Source of the DNA: a bacterium
GTDB taxonomy: Bacteria; JAHJDO01
Length of the DNA: 7,204 bases
Reading direction: 5' to 3'
Assembly (NCBI GenBank): GCA_030652805.1
Contig: JAUSPT010000037.1
Coordinates: 1 to 7,204, forward strand
A model generated the notes under the pieces. The model was not told where the DNA came from and made no database searches. It was given only the letters and a program-made list of their open reading frames with translations. Below, piece by piece: positions 355 through 7,204 of the stretch (its first letter is position 1; every line of letters starts with the position of its first letter). The position numbers and the translations under genes were made by a program.

Positions 355-645
355 TTACGTCATTTCTTCCAAACTCCAGGCAAAGGCCTTGATGCCTTCT
401 TTTCCCAATTTTTGGCGCAAGCTTTTTATCCGCTCAATAAGCCTGTCTTTTTTATTATCTTCAACAGCAACTGCCAAAGCAGAATTTACTGTCGGCCAGA
501 TATGGGTGTCTAAATGCGGACCACTGGTTATTCCTTGTCCTTGAACTCTTGGCCACCGTGTAAATCCTTCTATCGCCAACTCTTTTAAAACTTCCATTAC
601 TTCGGTCTCAATAGCCACATTATATGTTATAAAGACCATTTTCAT
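355..645 (-). CDS. PII-like small protein coupled to the RND permease
   Basis: This 96-residue protein has the length and alternation of a PII/GlnB-like ferredoxin-like fold. It has strand 1 (residues 2-9), helix 1 (about 13-27), a G-x-G-containing loop where the T-loop would be (about 34-54, including VQGQG and SGPHLDTHIWP), strand 3 (55-62) and helix 2 (64-79). The usual C-terminal B-loop for ATP (TGxxGDGK-like) is not visible; the end reads GKEGIKAFAWSLEEMT. ATP/2-oxoglutarate sensing as in GlnB is therefore doubtful. His44, Asp46 and His48 in the loop could form a small metal site (inference). The start ATG at 643-645 overlaps the permease stop (ATGA), with AGGAGA eight bases upstream. 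It is the last gene of the operon, so it is probably made in step with the permease. Small PII-like proteins (for example DUF3240) are known beside heavy-metal RND pumps in Proteobacteria, so it may sense substrate or modulate the pump. No signal peptide is seen, so it is likely cytoplasmic. Confidence 0.72.
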   Translation of the reverse strand: MKMVFITYNVAIETEVMEVLKELAIEGFTRWPRVQGQGITSGPHLDTHIWPTVNSALAVAVEDNKKDRLIERIKSLRQKLGKEGIKAFAWSLEEMT

Positions 646-3600
646 TTCGCCTGTCTCCTCTTCATCAAATTGTTATTCTTGAGATGCTGCTCAAATAAAG
701 AATAGACAATGGGAACAATAATCAAGGTTACCAAGGTAGACACAAGTAGTCCCCCGATCACCGCACCCCCTAAAGGTCTCCATATCTCAGAGCCTTCTCC
801 TCGAATCAGGACTAGTGGTAACATCCCACAAATGGTACTGAGTGAGGTCATTAAAACTGGTCTGAGTCTATGCTCACCTGCGGTTTGAATAGCTTCAAAT
901 AAATTGAGTCCCCGAGCACGTAAGATGTTTGTATAATCAACCAGAACAATACCATTATTGACTACAATCCCCATTAGCATAATCAGACCGATAAAAGAGG
1001 TGATGGATAAGGTAGTTCCGGTGAGGAGAAAAAACCAGATTACTCCTACAAAGGCAAAGGGGACTGAAAACATAATCACAAAGGGGTCTAATAGCGACTC
1101 AAATTGAGAAGCCATGACCATATAGACCATAAGAATACCCAAAATTAGAAGCATAATTAAGTCCCTGAAGGCCTTTCTTTGTTCCTCTACCTCGCCGCCA
1201 AAGCCCACTGATATACCCTCTGGTACATCTATCTTGGCGAGTTCTGCCTTTATATCGCTGGCTATCTGACCTAATGGACGGCCGTATATCCTGGCCTCAA
1301 CCTTGACGATTCGCTCCTGTCCTTTTCTTTCAATCTCCAGAGGTTCAAGCTCCTCAGTAATAGTAGCGATATTCTTTAACTTGATGGCTTTGCCTGTAAA
1401 GGAGGTAATGGTGATATTTTCTATATCAGGGATGATTCTGCGATCCTTTTCCTTCAGTCGAACAAAGATATCATATTCCTCACCGGCCTCCCGGAATTTG
1501 GTAGCCTCCTTTCCATAGAAATGAGTCCTCAGGGTATCCGCAATCTGAGCCATATTGAGACCCAAAGCAGAAGCCCTCTTCCTATCTACCTTAATCCGAA
1601 GTTCAGGCCTACCAACATCCCTGCTTATCATGATATCAACTGCACCGGGAGTGTCTTCTACTATTTTCTTTATCTTAGTAGCTAATTTATCGGTCTTCTC
1701 CAGATTGTGCCCAATAATCTCAATAGATATGGGTTTGGCTCCAGCAAAGAGCATCTGTGCCATAGCGGCCCCAGCCCTTATATCTATTTTTCTAATCCCC
1801 GGGATACGGGATACCTTTTCCCTCATAACCTTACCAATCTCTTTAGTGGATCTCCCGCGCTCACCCTTCCTGACCAACTTCGCAAAAAACTTCCCTACGT
1901 TTGACCCTCCCTTCATACCCATGGTCTCCTCATAACCTTCTTCTGATTGGCCAGTGAAACCAGCTATATTTTTCACCTCTGGTACATTCTTCTCAAATAT
2001 CTTCTCTATCTCCTGAGTAACCCTATCTGTCTCCTCTATTCTCATGCCCACGGGGAGCTCTATTCCCATATGGAATTCGCCTGAGTCTATCTCAGGGATA
2101 AACTCAGTGCCGATTATGGGGACTAAGGCTAAACTTAAGATAAAGATTAATACAATAATGCCTAAGGTTCTCTTACGATGACTAAGGGTCCAACCCAAAA
2201 GTTTTTTGTATCTTGATTCTACAATCTTAAACCAACGTTCGCTCAATTCATAGAAACGTTTTCCAAATCGTTTCTTAGGATTATCAGAAGGAGCAACCTT
2301 AAGTAGTCGAGAAGATAACATGGGCGTAAGGGTGAGGGCGGTAAAAAGAGATGCAAGAAGGGTAATGCTCATTACAAAAGCTAATTGTTTAAACATCACA
2401 CCTACGATTCCTCCAAGAAACATCAAGGGAACAAAAATTACTATGGTAGTAAAGGTTGCGGACATGACAGCCAATCCTACTTCTGAGGGAGCAAAAATCG
2501 CGGCCTCCCTTAATTTTTCCCCCCTATCTCTGTGCCGAGTGATATTATCTAAGACGACAACAGCATTATCTACTACCATTCCCACGGCGATGGCCATACT
2601 AACCAGGGACATCACATTGATGGTATATCCGCATAGATACAGGAAAATAAAACCTATAATCAGAGAGAAAGGAATAGTTAATGCTATAATCAGGCTGGAA
2701 CTCAACTGGCGAAGAAAAAATAGGCTAACCAAGATAACGAATATCCCTCCCCATATTACAGATTGCTTTAAGTTATCAATAGTCCAGACTATCAAGTCGG
2801 AACTATCTATTATGGGGAGAATTTCTATATCTTTAGGAAGGGTCATTTGTAATTTCTTAAGTTTTTCCTTGACTGCCTTGGTGATGTTGACAGTATTACC
2901 ACCGGTCATCTTCTGAATCATAAGCATTAATCCGTATTCCCCATTGGTGCGGGCAAACATAGTCTGCTCTTTAAAACTATCCTCTACCTTTGCCACATCT
3001 TTAAGATAAAGTAAGATGCCCGCATGTTGACCAATTACTACATCTCCTATTTCATCCGGGGTTTCAAACTCTCCAGGCAACCGGATAATATATTCAGTCT
3101 TTCCTAATTTGAGACTTCCTGCAGGAAGGGTTATATTCTCCATGGCCAGAATTTGGACTACCTGCTGGATAGGTATGTGAAAGGCCTCTAAGCGTTCTCG
3201 ATCAAAGTAGACATTTATCTGTCTCTGGAGTCCTGCCATTATCTTGACTGAACCCACCCCTGGTACTGTCTTTAAAGGGTCTACAACCTTATCATCAATG
3301 ATATCGTACAATTTAAGATAACTCTCCTTAGCCTTTACTCCACATACCAAGATGGGCATCATAGCAGTATTGAATTTGAAGACCATAGGTTTCTCTATAT
3401 CGTCAGGCAGGTCTTTTTTGGCAAACTCAAGCTTGTCTCGTACATCATTAGAAGCCTCATTCAGATCGGTTCCCCATTCAAATGTGCAGGTAACAATAGA
3501 GAGATTCTCTTTGGATTTGGAGGTAATTTTATCGAGGTTATTCACAATAGAAAGGCTATCTTCGATATACTTAGTAACCTTGGTCTCTACATCGGTAGCT

Positions 3601-3764
3601 CCCGCTCCTGGATAGATGGTTATGACGCTGATGGCCGGAGGTTCAATCTCCGGCATCAAATCAATAGGGAGTCGAGTAAAGCAAATTGCCCCCAAGATAA
3701 AAATACCCAGAAATAACATTGTTACTGTAGTGGGATGCTTTACTCCAAACTCAGGTAACCTCAT
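642..3764 (-). CDS. RND-family efflux permease (AcrB/HAE1-like inner-membrane subunit)
   Basis: At 1040 residues this is the usual length of AcrB-type pumps, and it shows the duplicated architecture. TM1 is at about 11-29, followed by a periplasmic porter loop (about 30-333). TM2-6 lie in 335-483, a cytoplasmic linker at 485-530, TM7 at about 532-550, a second porter loop (551-866), and TM8-12 in 867-1022. The TM4 motif GMVVDNAVVVLDN (395-407) carries one acidic residue, Asp399, with Asn400 at the second position where AcrB has a second Asp. TM10 reads GIVVNNGIVLVDY (932-944), with Asn936 at the position of AcrB Lys940. Arg966 and Thr973 match AcrB Arg971 and Thr978. These motifs fit drug/lipophile (HAE1-like) pumps better than heavy-metal CusA-type pumps, but the substrate cannot be read from sequence. 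The protein uses proton flow to export compounds from the periplasm or membrane through the adaptor and outer-membrane factor encoded just upstream. The ATG (3762-3764) overlaps the adaptor stop as ATGA and has AAAGGAG seven bases upstream. No frameshift or truncation is seen. Confidence 0.96.
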   Translation of the reverse strand: MRLPEFGVKHPTTVTMLFLGIFILGAICFTRLPIDLMPEIEPPAISVITIYPGAGATDVETKVTKYIEDSLSIVNNLDKITSKSKENLSIVTCTFEWGTDLNEASNDVRDKLEFAKKDLPDDIEKPMVFKFNTAMMPILVCGVKAKESYLKLYDIIDDKVVDPLKTVPGVGSVKIMAGLQRQINVYFDRERLEAFHIPIQQVVQILAMENITLPAGSLKLGKTEYIIRLPGEFETPDEIGDVVIGQHAGILLYLKDVAKVEDSFKEQTMFARTNGEYGLMLMIQKMTGGNTVNITKAVKEKLKKLQMTLPKDIEILPIIDSSDLIVWTIDNLKQSVIWGGIFVILVSLFFLRQLSSSLIIALTIPFSLIIGFIFLYLCGYTINVMSLVSMAIAVGMVVDNAVVVLDNITRHRDRGEKLREAAIFAPSEVGLAVMSATFTTIVIFVPLMFLGGIVGVMFKQLAFVMSITLLASLFTALTLTPMLSSRLLKVAPSDNPKKRFGKRFYELSERWFKIVESRYKKLLGWTLSHRKRTLGIIVLIFILSLALVPIIGTEFIPEIDSGEFHMGIELPVGMRIEETDRVTQEIEKIFEKNVPEVKNIAGFTGQSEEGYEETMGMKGGSNVGKFFAKLVRKGERGRSTKEIGKVMREKVSRIPGIRKIDIRAGAAMAQMLFAGAKPISIEIIGHNLEKTDKLATKIKKIVEDTPGAVDIMISRDVGRPELRIKVDRKRASALGLNMAQIADTLRTHFYGKEATKFREAGEEYDIFVRLKEKDRRIIPDIENITITSFTGKAIKLKNIATITEELEPLEIERKGQERIVKVEARIYGRPLGQIASDIKAELAKIDVPEGISVGFGGEVEEQRKAFRDLIMLLILGILMVYMVMASQFESLLDPFVIMFSVPFAFVGVIWFFLLTGTTLSITSFIGLIMLMGIVVNNGIVLVDYTNILRARGLNLFEAIQTAGEHRLRPVLMTSLSTICGMLPLVLIRGEGSEIWRPLGGAVIGGLLVSTLVTLIIVPIVYSLFEQHLKNNNLMKRRQAK

Positions 3765-4693
3765 TCTTGTGCTCCTTTAGATATAATCTCCACAGCCTGA
3801 CCATCTTTTAAGCCCTGTTGTCCTGTTATAACCACTGAATCTCCCTCTTGAATTCCATCGGTTACTTCTATCTTATCCTCTTCACTCATCCCTGTTATTA
3901 TTTTCCTTTTGCAGGCTTTGCCATCTTTAATTATAAAGCAATACATTTCACCATTTTCTCTAATAACAGCATCTCGCAAAATATATGGGACTCCTTTATG
4001 TTCTAAAACATCTATTCTCACTCTGGCAAACATACCGGATTTTAAGATATGTTCGGGGTTTGATATTTCAATTTCAAGCGGAGCAGTGCGAGTTGTAAGA
4101 TCTATAACTGGGCTGACCATAGAAACCTTTCCTTCAAATATCTCTTCAGGATAGGCATCTACTTTAACCTGGGATAGCTGATCTTCTTTAACCTTGGGCA
4201 AATCCCTTTCCACAATGTCAATTTTTACTTTTATCACATCCATATTTACAATCTTAGCAATAGGTATTTGCGGTGAAACGTTTTCTCCTTTATCTACATA
4301 AATCCTACCTATTATCCCATCTATTGGGGAGGTAACTGGCGATTTCTCAAATTTTAATCCAATCTCATCTCTATCAATATAAGTAAGAACATCGCCTTTC
4401 TTTACTGCATCTCCTTCCTTGGCAAGTTTTTCTATAATTTTACCGGTCACTTTAGGATAAACTATTGCTTCATCTTCAGCCTTTATATCCCCTACGTAAG
4501 AAAGCACTTCCTTAATGTCGACTCTTTTTACTTTCGTTACCCTTACTGGAATTTTAGCTACTTTTATTTCAGCAACTTTTTTGCCACAACCTGCTAAGAT
4601 TGAAATTCCAAGCACTAAGCACCAAATAACAAACAAATTACAAGCACCAAATATCCAATGACCAAAACTACTTTGCTTTGAATTTTTCCGCAT
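3761..4693 (-). CDS. Periplasmic adaptor (membrane fusion protein) lipoprotein, hairpin-less type
   Basis: This 310-residue RND adaptor begins with a hydrophobic signal peptide and a lipobox L33-A34-G35-C36, so mature Cys36 should be lipidated and anchor the protein to the inner membrane. The first biotinyl-lipoyl half is at about 76-107 (VTGKIIEKLAKEGDAVKKGDVL). The second half is at about 120-150 (VTSPIDGIIGRIYVDKGENV). A beta-barrel domain follows (about 151-232) and then a membrane-proximal domain (about 233-305). Only about a dozen residues (108-119) join the two lipoyl halves, so the coiled-coil alpha-hairpin that usually meets TolC is absent. This explains a length below the usual 340-400. 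The role is to link the permease to the outer-membrane factor. The ATG (4691-4693) comes one base after the upstream stop codon, with GGAGAG five bases before it. Residues 9-31, including most of the signal-peptide core, are encoded by repeat-like DNA (4602-4668). Confidence 0.92.
   Translation of the reverse strand: MRKNSKQSSFGHWIFGACNLFVIWCLVLGISILAGCGKKVAEIKVAKIPVRVTKVKRVDIKEVLSYVGDIKAEDEAIVYPKVTGKIIEKLAKEGDAVKKGDVLTYIDRDEIGLKFEKSPVTSPIDGIIGRIYVDKGENVSPQIPIAKIVNMDVIKVKIDIVERDLPKVKEDQLSQVKVDAYPEEIFEGKVSMVSPVIDLTTRTAPLEIEISNPEHILKSGMFARVRIDVLEHKGVPYILRDAVIRENGEMYCFIIKDGKACKRKIITGMSEEDKIEVTDGIQEGDSVVITGQQGLKDGQAVEIISKGAQE
4602..4668. repeat. Low-complexity repeat inside the adaptor signal-peptide coding region
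   Basis: The plus strand carries AAGCACCAAAT twice, at 4617-4627 and 4642-4652 (period 25 bp), with a partial copy AAGCACT at 4610-4616. The flanks are AAC- and CAA-rich and end in CCAATGACCAAAAC. I recognise this style of sequence (GCACCAAATAACAAA...CCAATGACCAAAA) as an intergenic repeat seen many times in some planctomycete and candidate-phylum genomes; this is recollection, not a search. Read on the minus strand it stays open in the adaptor frame and supplies residues 9-31. Confidence 0.6.
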
Positions 4694-4694
4694 T

Positions 4695-6251
4695 TTATCT
4701 CTCCAATTTTATATCATTTTTAACTAAAGTTAATCCTTCTGATTTGTCCAGATTGATGATAGATATTTCGTGATCTATCAAAGCCTTTATGTAATCCAGC
4801 TCAGCCTGCGATAATCTCTCCTGATAGTCCAGCATATCATGAGTGCTTACCTCGCCTGCTGTGTATCTCTCGTTTTGAACATTATAGTTCTGTGTCTCTG
4901 CTTCTCTGGACAATGAAGAAGCTTCAACCTGACGGTATTGTATATCAACTTCTCTTACCTTATCTCTTACTTCAAGAATGATATTCTGCTCAAGTCTCTT
5001 GAATGATATTAACGCCTGAATTTTTTCTAACTTTTTCTTATTATACTCCCCGCGCGCTTTTTTGTTTCCCAGAGGAACCTTAAAATTCAATCCAATGCTC
5101 CAATCCTCATAGTCTCCTGTTCCAACTTTACTGAGCGCTTCGTCAAGATTATCTCCTAGGCCATTCAAGCCAAAACTTCCAACTAGATCCAGAGTAGGGA
5201 AGAGAACATTCTTAGCTTTTTTTATCTTTATGTCCCTATTCTCAAGAGCAATCTCTTCCGAAGCATAATCAGGCCTGTATTGAAAAGCATTACTAAGACT
5301 TCTTGCAAGATCAACGTATTCTTTTGTAAAAACAGGTTTATCTAAAGGCACAATCTCAGTGTTCCAGAGGGATGGGTCATCAACCAGGCTTGTTATCAAT
5401 TTCAACTCATCTTCAGATTTTTTCAATGTTGATTCTGCTGAAATTAGATTTTTTTGTCTCTTGGCAACAGCTGTCTTTGTCTCCAGCAAAGTCAGAGAAC
5501 TTACCAGTCCCGCTTTATATCGTTTATTGTTAATCTGAAGCATGTCCTCTGCGCGCTTTAATGATGATTTTGCTATATTGTGTTTTTCTGTGTAAAAAAT
5601 GTAATTATAATAAGCAGCTTTCGTTTTTGTTATTATATCTGCAACTGTATTTTCAAAATCTTCCTCTGAGATATTTTTATCATTTTTGGCAATAGTAATA
5701 TCTGCGCGGTTTACCTGCACGCCAAATCCTTTAAGTAATGGCTGTGTGATCGTGATCTTGGCTTCTGATGTGTAATTGTCGTTCCTAAGACTGGCGGAAG
5801 AAGGATCATCTTTGCTTCTATTGTTTAGAAAGTCCATGTTGTATTTAGTCCCGGTATATAACTTTCCTGATAAACCTGCGTTAATATCTTCATCTCTTGA
5901 GTTAATTGTATTATCTGTGTATGCAGTGGAATTATTCTGGTTTGTGTTATCTCTGAGTTTATAAGTTGCATCAAAGGACGGCTCAAAATCTGAGCGAGCG
6001 ATTTTTATATCAGATTCCTTTAATCTTGGCTCAATCTTTTTAATTTTGATTTCTGAATTATTCCTTAAGGCAAAGGCTATACAATCAACAAGTCCTATTT
6101 TTAAAACCTTTTTTGTATTAGCAGAGGCGATGAAATCCTCTTTTTTATAAGTAGGTATTTTATCTGTAGTTTCTGCCAAACAAATAACATACATAAATAT
6201 GTTCAAGCATAGGGAAAAAAGCATAAAGAATAAGGCATATTTTTTATTCAT
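4695..6251 (-). CDS. TolC-family outer-membrane efflux factor
   Basis: This 518-residue protein is the outer-membrane channel of the pump. An N-terminal signal peptide (basic MNKK, hydrophobic core to about residue 25) ends in a plausible signal peptidase I site after Ala26 (ICLA, then ET). I see no lipobox, so it is probably not lipidated. Two OEP repeats are recognisable: the first about 50-290, the second about 312-505. Each has the family's conserved helix start, RYKAGLVSSLTLLE (244-257) and RYTAGEVSTHDMLD (462-475), followed by a long helix rich in Ala, Gln and Glu. Beta segments for the barrel include the TQPLLKGFG region (169-177), FPTLDLVGSFG (351-361) and LNFKVPLGN (388-396). It is somewhat longer than E. 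coli TolC because of a Asn/Asp/Ser-rich stretch at 100-160, probably barrel and surface loops. The ATG (6249-6251) overlaps the tetR stop (ATGA). Its ribosome binding site (GGGG, eight bases upstream) is weak, so it may rely on coupling to tetR translation. Confidence 0.94.
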   Translation of the reverse strand: MNKKYALFFMLFSLCLNIFMYVICLAETTDKIPTYKKEDFIASANTKKVLKIGLVDCIAFALRNNSEIKIKKIEPRLKESDIKIARSDFEPSFDATYKLRDNTNQNNSTAYTDNTINSRDEDINAGLSGKLYTGTKYNMDFLNNRSKDDPSSASLRNDNYTSEAKITITQPLLKGFGVQVNRADITIAKNDKNISEEDFENTVADIITKTKAAYYNYIFYTEKHNIAKSSLKRAEDMLQINNKRYKAGLVSSLTLLETKTAVAKRQKNLISAESTLKKSEDELKLITSLVDDPSLWNTEIVPLDKPVFTKEYVDLARSLSNAFQYRPDYASEEIALENRDIKIKKAKNVLFPTLDLVGSFGLNGLGDNLDEALSKVGTGDYEDWSIGLNFKVPLGNKKARGEYNKKKLEKIQALISFKRLEQNIILEVRDKVREVDIQYRQVEASSLSREAETQNYNVQNERYTAGEVSTHDMLDYQERLSQAELDYIKALIDHEISIINLDKSEGLTLVKNDIKLER

Positions 6252-6856
6252 CTTTTTACCCCGTTTAAGAAGACTTCCAACACTAAGGGTGCATTGCTCA
6301 CAATTTCCTCTTTAGCTGGATTTCTGCCCTTTAACCAATACACAATGATATTATGGATAATACCTGTTAAAACATGCGCTAGCTTTTCCGCAGGATAGAT
6401 TTTCTTGATACTATCTTTCTCCTGAGCTTCTTTAATAACACATATAAAGAGATCTAAGTGCTTTCTAAATTTATCTCTTTTATATACATCTATGTCTTGC
6501 ATTACTTCTTTGAGACTGCTTTCTTCGTAGAAGTAAATCTTGAAAAAATCAACATTTTCTGCAACAAATTCAAGATTTGCGCTCACTAGCACCTTGATTT
6601 TTTTTATAGGGTCTCTAATTCTCTTTATTTTTTCGTTTATACGACTAAAAAGTTCATCAGTTTTACGTTCCAGCAGCGCAAGATATAAACTCTGCTTGTC
6701 CTTAAAGTAATTATAGAGTGTTCCTACTGCGTATTGTGCCTCGCTAGCGATATCGAGCATACTGCTGTTATAATAGCCTTTGGTTGCAAAAATTCTCTCT
6801 GCAGCACCTAGAATATCATTTTGTCTTAAGTTTTTGTCTCTTTCTTTTCTATCCAT
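6248..6856 (-). CDS. TetR/AcrR-family transcriptional repressor
   Basis: This 202-residue protein has a classic TetR N-terminal DNA-binding domain. Helix 1 is ILGAAERIFATKGYY (15-29). The helix-turn-helix follows at about 32-51, with the hallmark GTLYNYFKDKQSL (45-57). The remainder (about 58-200) is all-helical with no recognisable signature, as expected for a ligand-binding and dimerisation domain; the ligand is unknown. It is the first gene of the pump operon and overlaps the outer-membrane factor gene by ATGA. It should therefore repress itself and the pump together and be released by a substrate of the pump. The ATG (6854-6856) is the first possible start, because an in-frame TAA lies three codons upstream. 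No Shine-Dalgarno sequence precedes it; that space is filled by the AT-rich palindrome at 6858-6871. Poor initiation would keep repressor levels low. Confidence 0.95.
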   Translation of the reverse strand: MDRKERDKNLRQNDILGAAERIFATKGYYNSSMLDIASEAQYAVGTLYNYFKDKQSLYLALLERKTDELFSRINEKIKRIRDPIKKIKVLVSANLEFVAENVDFFKIYFYEESSLKEVMQDIDVYKRDKFRKHLDLFICVIKEAQEKDSIKKIYPAEKLAHVLTGIIHNIIVYWLKGRNPAKEEIVSNAPLVLEVFLNGVKR

Positions 6857-6857
6857 A

Positions 6858-6910
6858 TGAATTTATATTCAATTAATGAGTTTATGTTCACAATATAAAA
6901 TACAAATTCA
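6858..6910. promoter_or_regulatory. Three operator-like elements, putative TetR binding sites
   Basis: Three related 14-bp elements are spaced at 19 and 20 bp. Site 1 is TGAATTTATATTCA (6858-6871), symmetric at six of seven positions. Site 2 is TGAGTTTATGTTCA (6877-6890), with 12 of 14 bases identical to site 1. Site 3 is AAAATACAAATTCA (6897-6910), which matches the reverse complement of site 1 at 11 of 14. Site 3 sits in the promoter spacer and touches the -10. Site 2 covers the predicted transcription start. Site 1 abuts the tetR start codon. Position, symmetry and two-turn spacing make them likely operators of the adjacent TetR protein. The AT-rich background makes some of the similarity cheap. 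Confidence 0.55.
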
Positions 6911-6920
6911 CTTTTGTCAA
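6892..6920 (-). promoter_or_regulatory. Main sigma70-type promoter of the efflux operon
   Basis: On the minus strand a perfect -35 TTGACA (6915-6920) is followed by a 17-bp spacer and TATATT (6892-6897), five of six matches to the -10 consensus. The predicted start is near 6885, giving a leader of about 29 bases before the tetR ATG. A second TTGACA (6927-6932) lies 12 bp upstream in the same orientation and forms a direct repeat, TTGACAAAATCG then TTGACAAAAGTG. This is a strong promoter, which fits an operon held down by a repressor. Confidence 0.8.
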
Positions 6921-6976
6921 CGATTTTGTCAAGCACCCTAGAATCGCTATTGGAAATAAATTGATGAGAAAAAATA

Positions 6977-7005
6977 TTGAAAAAGCCTCGTTGGCAAGCG
7001 ATAAT
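6977..7005 (+). promoter_or_regulatory. Divergent sigma70-like promoter
   Basis: On the plus strand TTGAAA (6977-6982) is followed by exactly 17 bp and GATAAT (7000-7005), each five of six consensus matches. It points away from the pump operon toward the six-codon ORF and hairpin downstream. The predicted start is near 7012. The spacer contains the left arm of a 9-bp inverted repeat (CCTCGTTGG, 6986-6994), a possible repressor half-site. Confidence 0.5.
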
Positions 7006-7044
7006 AGGACTTGTGAAAACAAAACAACCACTTAACCAACGAGG
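6986..7044. repeat. 9-bp inverted repeat CCTCGTTGG / CCAACGAGG
   Basis: CCTCGTTGG (6986-6994) and CCAACGAGG (7036-7044) are perfect inverted copies separated by 41 bases. The right arm overlaps the GAGGTG ribosome binding site at 7041-7046, and the left arm lies inside the promoter spacer. The repeat could be a pair of protein-binding half-sites, the ends of a small element, or an RNA stem hiding the ribosome binding site if transcription starts further upstream. Confidence 0.6.
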
Positions 7045-7051
7045 TGAAACA

Positions 7052-7072
7052 ATGGTACAACAAACGTTATAG
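7052..7072 (+). CDS. Six-codon ORF (MVQQTL), leader peptide or gene remnant
   Basis: ATG at 7052-7054 follows GAGGTG (7041-7046) at an ideal five-base distance and reads six codons, MVQQTL, to a TAG at 7070-7072. A hairpin terminator begins ten bases later, and a promoter-like pair lies upstream at 6977-7005. So good initiation signals serve an almost empty gene. It may be a leader peptide, the stump of a gene (perhaps a transposase) whose body was deleted, or chance. No run of one amino acid suggests classical attenuation. Confidence 0.3.
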   Translation: MVQQTL

Positions 7073-7073
7073 T

Positions 7074-7204
7074 TTAGTTATAAAAAGTTGATCTTTTCAA
7101 CTTTTTTTGCATTTTTACTTTATACGTAGAAACGCCACGACAATTCAAGCTCTCTGCCACCTCCTTTCCAGCTTGATTGATATTGATATATAGTATCATT
7201 TTTT
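7074..7204 (-). pseudogene. Possible remnant of a LuxR/NarL-type helix-turn-helix C-terminus
   Basis: A minus-strand frame is open from the right edge to a TAA at 7074-7076; from the ATG at 7197-7199 it encodes 41 residues. Its centre, AGKEVAESL then VSTYKVKMQKKLK, fits the LuxR/NarL DNA-binding helix-turn-helix pattern (typically NKEIAEEL...KTVSTYR..I..KL). The turn between AESL and VSTY is about two residues shorter than normal. The frame stops soon after the KL, earlier than response regulators usually do. No receiver domain can be judged because the window ends. The DNA also contains AAAGGAGGTGG (minus strand, 7159-7169), which looks like a ribosome binding site but here may simply encode Lys-Glu-Val. 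It could be the worn or truncated end of a response-regulator gene, or chance resemblance. Confidence 0.35.
7082..7108. terminator. Bidirectional intrinsic terminator hairpin
   Basis: AAAAAGTTGA (7082-7091) pairs perfectly with TCAACTTTTT (7097-7106) around a five-base TCTTT loop, giving a 10-bp stem flanked by T-runs in either direction. On the plus strand it would end the mini-unit containing the six-codon ORF. On the minus strand it overlaps the last codons of the frame entering from the right edge. The stem is AT-rich with only two G-C pairs, so strength is moderate. Confidence 0.6.

Follow-up and report, generated by a model that had tools for sequence, protein, structure and literature searches.

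A PG0541-family PII-like protein encoded with an RND efflux permease: a candidate cytoplasmic regulator of the pump

Introduction

What might a small PII-like protein be doing as the last gene of an operon for a drug-type RND efflux pump? As far as is known, RND pumps are controlled mainly at the level of transcription, and only a few modulators that act after translation are known (AcrZ, WatS1). Both PII proteins and RND permeases form trimers. The locus that raises the question lies on a stretch of 7204 bases (hereafter the window), which is an entire contig of a 2.0-Mb genome assembly. Here, we analyze the family, fold, gene neighborhood and ligand-site residues of the PII-like protein and consider how it might act.

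Results

Operon layout

The genes on the minus strand form an operon of the order TetR-TolC-adaptor-permease-PII, with the 96-residue PII-like gene in final position:

6892..6920, minus strand: sigma-70-like promoter TTGACA-17-TATATT (11 of 12) ahead of the TetR gene (consensus match only)
6248..6856, minus strand: TetR-family regulator, first gene of the operon (PF00440, 53.2 bits)
4695..6251, minus strand: TolC-type outer membrane efflux protein (PF02321 OEP, 170.7 bits)
3761..4693, minus strand: periplasmic adaptor, or membrane fusion protein (TIGR01730, 202.8 bits, cut-off 94.9; HlyD_D23)
642..3764, minus strand: RND permease of 1040 aa, gene partner of the PII-like protein (PF00873)
642..645, minus strand: ATGA overlap of permease stop and PII-like start (ORF coordinates)
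355..645, minus strand: PII-like protein of 96 aa, PG0541 family (PF00543, NF045581)

The promoter assignment is to be read against the finding that promoter-like sites are as numerous in a shuffled sequence as in the window. Among NCBIfam models, the TetR gene product most resembles FadR/FasR, at scores under their cut-offs (NF053878, 69.1 bits, cut-off 200). The genes are tightly packed, with 4-bp overlaps at the TetR/TolC, adaptor/permease and permease/PII junctions and a gap of 1 bp between TolC and adaptor. The last of these overlaps had been pointed out in a first-pass annotation of the window, and it is borne out: the start of the 96-residue ORF (645-355, minus strand) shares the ATGA at bases 645-642 with the stop of the permease ORF (3764-642, minus strand). 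Judged from this arrangement, translational coupling of the two genes is plausible, yet the PII-like gene also has a start signal of its own, a Shine-Dalgarno-like GAGGAG about 9 nt 5' of its ATG within the end of the permease gene.

Family, fold and selection of the PII-like protein

The 96-residue protein scored 28.5 bits against the Pfam P-II model PF00543 (gathering cut-off 25) and, over residues 2-90, 106.4 bits against NF045581 (curated cut-off 45), a model that NCBIfam names "PG0541 family transporter-associated protein". PF00543 also matched 28 of 44 relatives at E <= 0.1, and a profile built from these 44 relatives found PII proteins among the solved structures (best E 1.7e-05). An AlphaFold model of the protein alone, built from two sequences and thus of modest confidence (mean pLDDT 73, pTM 0.66), displays a beta-alpha-beta, beta-alpha-beta layout in PII order, with strands at residues 2-8, 28-31, 55-61 and 85-90 and helices at 10-22 and 63-79, while loop residues 36-49 (pLDDT < 50) are left unmodelled. 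Its structural neighbors are CPII, TT1020, PotN, GlnK and SbtB (Foldseek E down to 3.4e-05), and VIA-align gave Z values of about 9-10.5 relative to CPII, TT1020, GlnK and SbtB. By profile matches and predicted model, the family and the monomer fold of the protein are thus PII-like, as the first-pass annotation had proposed. That annotation had also brought up the DUF3240 proteins that accompany heavy-metal RND pumps. Kinship with these was rejected, as a profile search with PF11582 gave no match for the window protein at E 1 and a weak one for 1 of the 44 relatives.

The closest relative (L008), from a metagenome-assembled genome labelled Candidatus Omnitrophota, encodes a 71% identical PII-like protein in an operon of identical order, likewise with the 4-bp overlap. 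Comparison of the two PII-like genes yielded a dN/dS of ~0.2, which argues for a real gene under purifying selection. The minus-strand frame, and not the overlapping plus-strand ORFs, was taken as the gene because it is there that the family matches and the purifying selection are found. A contig scan of genomes with the single PII-like protein as query returned one locus only.

The window holds a PG0541 member outside Bacteroidota, which is like the rest of the family in score and gene order and differs from it in nothing essential. Annotated records of Bacteroides finegoldii and Parabacteroides distasonis show the same TetR-TolC-adaptor-permease-PG0541 order. With the family already named as "transporter-associated" in NCBIfam, the pairing is part of database annotation and its novelty is smaller than the first-pass annotation implied; functionally, the family is unstudied. 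We found no literature reference to the function of PG0541 in a search conducted mostly without subscription journals, and in the papers found it appears for Porphyromonas only as "hypothetical protein".

Survey of the permease/PII-like pairing

We surveyed 385 genomes across the bacterial domain. Matches to the NF045581 family occurred in 50, of which 42 were over the cut-off, and none of 14 control genomes contained a family member. The neighborhood was readable for 41 of the 42 over-cut-off hits, the hit in G178 lying at a contig edge. An RND permease adjoins the gene in 40/41 readable cases: in 39 the PII-like gene is located directly downstream on the same strand (in G152 and G169 behind a broken or remnant permease), and in G273 directly upstream. 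Of the 42 hits over the cut-off, 13, with the window among them, have exactly this 4-bp overlap of the two genes. The surveyed genomes carry only ~1-13 RND genes each, and adjacency by chance was ruled out on these grounds. Location beside a transporter, which gives the family its name, thus applies to the window as to nearly all readable members.

The reverse search, with the window permease against 370 genomes, gave a similar picture. In other genomes, a PII-like gene lies directly downstream of 15 of the 17 top matches, those of G154 and G270 being without it, and the gene becomes rarer under ~42% permease identity. The two outcomes that would have spoken against the first-pass annotation, a fold unlike PII and an absence of the gene beside orthologous permeases, were thus not observed. 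No PII-like ORF was present in the downstream stretch read for the unlinked RND paralogues that we examined, most of them taken from genomes with a family member; a few of these flanks were shortened by a contig end. In G372, a second pump copy (L115) is devoid of the PII-like gene. Together with the pumps of G154 and G270, this copy indicates that the pump can manage without the PII-like protein. In a permease tree, the PII-linked permeases make up one large group, with few members that lack the gene, plus several separate branches; the pairing has therefore been kept or re-made repeatedly. Within the window's genus, a close permease was found in one of four other genomes (47% identity, ended by a contig end) and a PII-like gene was detected in none of the four, so the operon is accessory there.

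The regulator gene at the head of the operon brings in a different reading, according to which the PII-like protein would be a cytosolic sensor that controls operon expression or another soluble target, for example by binding TetR, and would reside in the operon for co-expression only. PII proteins also regulate soluble enzymes and regulators, and the Bacteroides and Parabacteroides operons with their identical TetR-TolC-adaptor-permease-PII order would be in line with such a role. However, the gene adjoins the permease even at loci where no window-type TetR was detected nearby (L051, L065, L075 and others), and the very frequent overlap with, or distance of a few bases from, the permease stop favors the permease as partner. 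We therefore consider an expression sensor unlikely, though a contender to be taken seriously.

One family member and some weak matches occur in other surroundings. The sole over-cut-off member distant from an RND pump, in G035 (L081, 5396-7288), lies between an apparent glutamate synthase small-subunit gene, which it follows, and a gene of radical-SAM-like type. Weak PII-like matches below the cut-off in G136 and G273 (L093, L095) are situated right behind an RNase E/G-type-like gene of ~480-500 aa and not behind an RND pump.

Loop and ligand-site motifs

Compared with E. coli GlnK, the T-loop of the window protein (about residues 32-54) is shortened by 7 residues; the GlnK segment ELYRG aligns to a gap, and the long T-loop with its modifiable tyrosine is thus missing. 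At the position of the GlnK B-loop GDGK the protein reads LGKEGIKAF, and it stops short of the C-terminal tail RIRTGE. The window protein accordingly has neither the ATP-binding B-loop GDGK nor the RxRxGE tail of canonical PII proteins (GlnB/GlnK). The same holds for the family at large, with a GxGK B-loop and a C-terminal Arg tail each in 0/42 over-cut-off members; the first-pass annotation was right in noting that the usual ATP B-loop is not visible. What the family has conserved instead is a motif at the loop end, WPGxN, in which P51 is present in all 42 members, G52 in 36, W50 in 34 and N54 in 31, along with G36 in 35/42. The window protein has W50-P51-x-x-N54, with T at position 52 where the family mostly has G.

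Loss of the residues of the canonical ATP and 2-oxoglutarate site, taken together with the ATGA overlap, would suit a co-translationally made factor that helps to assemble or stabilize the permease and senses no ligand. Small modulators of RND pumps are known in AcrZ and WatS1 (PMC10710835), and the comparison here is to the role of AcrZ, not to its fold: AcrZ consists of one transmembrane helix (PMC10710835), whereas the window protein is predicted to be a soluble ferredoxin-like PII domain. We regard an assembly factor as improbable, in view of a conserved PII fold combined with high conservation of the loop motif (P51 42/42, W50 34, G52 36), which suggests a regulated interface, and of structures of PII-like SbtB and CPII, which bind ligands without a classical B-loop. 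As nucleotide-bound structures of SbtB and CPII are among the structural neighbors, lost ATP motifs do not exclude nucleotides, and the ligand could be a nucleotide bound in SbtB/CPII fashion or a pump substrate.

A metal as ligand had been suggested in the first-pass annotation on account of His44, Asp46 and His48 in the loop, and the protein might accordingly be a metal sensor or metal-binding pump partner. The three residues occur together in the window protein, L008 and L053. These are 3 of 42 family members; the commonest residues at positions 44, 46 and 48 are Arg, Gly and His, and residues of the H/D/E/C type occupy all three positions in 4/42 only. The HxDxH loop is thus, by sequence comparison, a local trait of the small subgroup to which the window belongs and was rejected as a family feature, and a general metal site of the family, held by this triad, is unlikely. 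A separate PII group, PII-NG, for which cobalt sensing has been proposed, is encoded beside CzcABC metal pumps (PMC7726332), which lends the idea some plausibility. Against it, the heavy-metal score of the window permease (528 bits, cut-off 701) is no better than its HAE1 score (533 bits, cut-off 940), the best model being that of a multidrug subfamily (780 bits). A metal-sensing function is therefore very improbable in our assessment.

The RND permease

The window permease matches ACR_tran (PF00873) over its full length (residues 5-1024, 889.8 bits). It had been described as being of the HAE1 kind, which was not confirmed: the score against TIGR00915 is well under the cut-off, as is that against the CusA/CzcA model (see above), and the top NCBIfam model, that of the multidrug subfamily, has a cut-off of 1250. 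The closest solved structure is E. coli MdtB. The proton relay of AcrB, Asp407-Asp408-Lys940, is not preserved, TM4 carrying Asp399-Asn400 and TM10 Asn936 at these positions, with Asn in place of both Asp408 and Lys940; going by these substitutions, ion coupling may differ from that in AcrB. The Asp/Asn/Asn pattern is common to many unlinked, PII-less paralogues and therefore characterizes this portion of the RND family, irrespective of PII linkage. A different distribution is seen for Arg951, a residue of the cytoplasmic loop between TM10 and TM11, which is present in 24/24 linked permeases of the main group and in 23% of the unlinked ones. This makes it a candidate contact for the PII-like protein, although a weak pointer, as shared ancestry explains the distribution equally well.

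Discussion

We favor a model in which the PII-like protein, made together with the RND permease, would form a small cytosolic trimer of the PII type that docks via its shortened WPGxN T-loop onto the cytoplasmic face of the permease trimer. A cytosolic ligand bound in the clefts between subunits would then turn pump activity up or down. This would follow the logic of GlnK on AmtB or SbtB on SbtA, with matched three-fold symmetry, applied here to an exporter. Direct control of the pump had been put forward in the first-pass annotation, and given the conserved pairing it is the hypothesis that suggests itself; that annotation was thus right in what it observed and in part in what it proposed. 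Docking and tuning appear most likely to us because PII proteins and RND permeases are both trimeric and because of the SbtB-SbtA precedent, where SbtB is bound at the cytoplasmic side of the SbtA trimer around a common three-fold axis with the T-loop inside the transporter (PMC8352866). As in GlnK-AmtB and SbtB-SbtA, a PII-type protein is co-encoded with a trimeric transporter, and T-loop docking is the proposed mode. Those systems are importers or channels with established ligand-controlled docking, whereas the putative partner in the window is an RND exporter. In being a small modulator of an RND permease, the PII-like protein would resemble AcrZ and WatS1.

The family and fold assignments, the 40/41 pairing, the 15/17 best permease matches with the gene and the dN/dS of ~0.2 support docking on the pump; the close permeases lacking the gene, the G035 member outside an RND operon and the low-confidence loop 36-49 speak against it. 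Operon neighborhood is no proof of physical contact between permease and PII-like protein, and the trimeric state, the docking and the regulation of the pump are what we infer. Weighing these points, we give roughly half our credence to a PII-type trimer that docks on the pump from the cytoplasmic side and tunes its activity by a ligand. A bolder version, in which a drug-type RND exporter is gated directly from the cytoplasm by a widespread PII switch that has lost its classical ATP site and responds to a ligand new to PII proteins, is possible but doubtful.

If the pair works along these lines, many bacteria, including gut Bacteroides, would tune an efflux pump to a metabolic signal by means of a PII switch. 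The value of the present analysis lies in a functional question that had gone unasked and in the sequence rules that accompany it: WPGxN in the loop, ATP motifs that have disappeared, and a group of permeases linked to the PII-like gene. With the partner gene adjacent, the relation of PII-like protein and permease is simple to test.

A related issue is that PII proteins accompany other RND exporters as well. PMC7726332, citing Sant'Anna 2009, places PII-NG proteins beside CzcABC metal pumps, as with Geobacter GSU2134. PII-NG and the window protein have in common that they are encoded beside an RND exporter; the pump partner is of the CzcABC type in the former, and the window permease scores under the CusA/CzcA cut-off. 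We observed one such arrangement in G348 (L153), where a CusA/CzcA-type permease (3-1403) is followed by a PII protein (1459-1794). This PII protein of the PII-NG kind retains an intact GDGK B-loop and an Arg-containing tail and gives no match to the PG0541 model, whereas the PG0541 family lacks both ATP motifs and goes with permeases of a different kind. At least two different forms of association between PII proteins and RND exporters have thus arisen.

Finally, both ends of the contig bear on how the locus was assembled. The last ~139 bases of the window (7066-7204) recur as 99-100% identical copies at no fewer than 8 other sites in this genome, of which several are at the ends of contigs, and are a repeat element that interrupted assembly. 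Positions 1-150 resemble part of contig C32 of the same genome at 95% identity, so that the left contig end also lies within a repeat. Just upstream of the 7066-7204 repeat, at 6966-7072, there is an inverted pair made up of CCTCGTTGG and CCAACGAGG. Behind it comes atggtacaacaaacgttatag, a short frame with an ATG start that terminates immediately; pair and frame are possibly the remnant of a mobile element.
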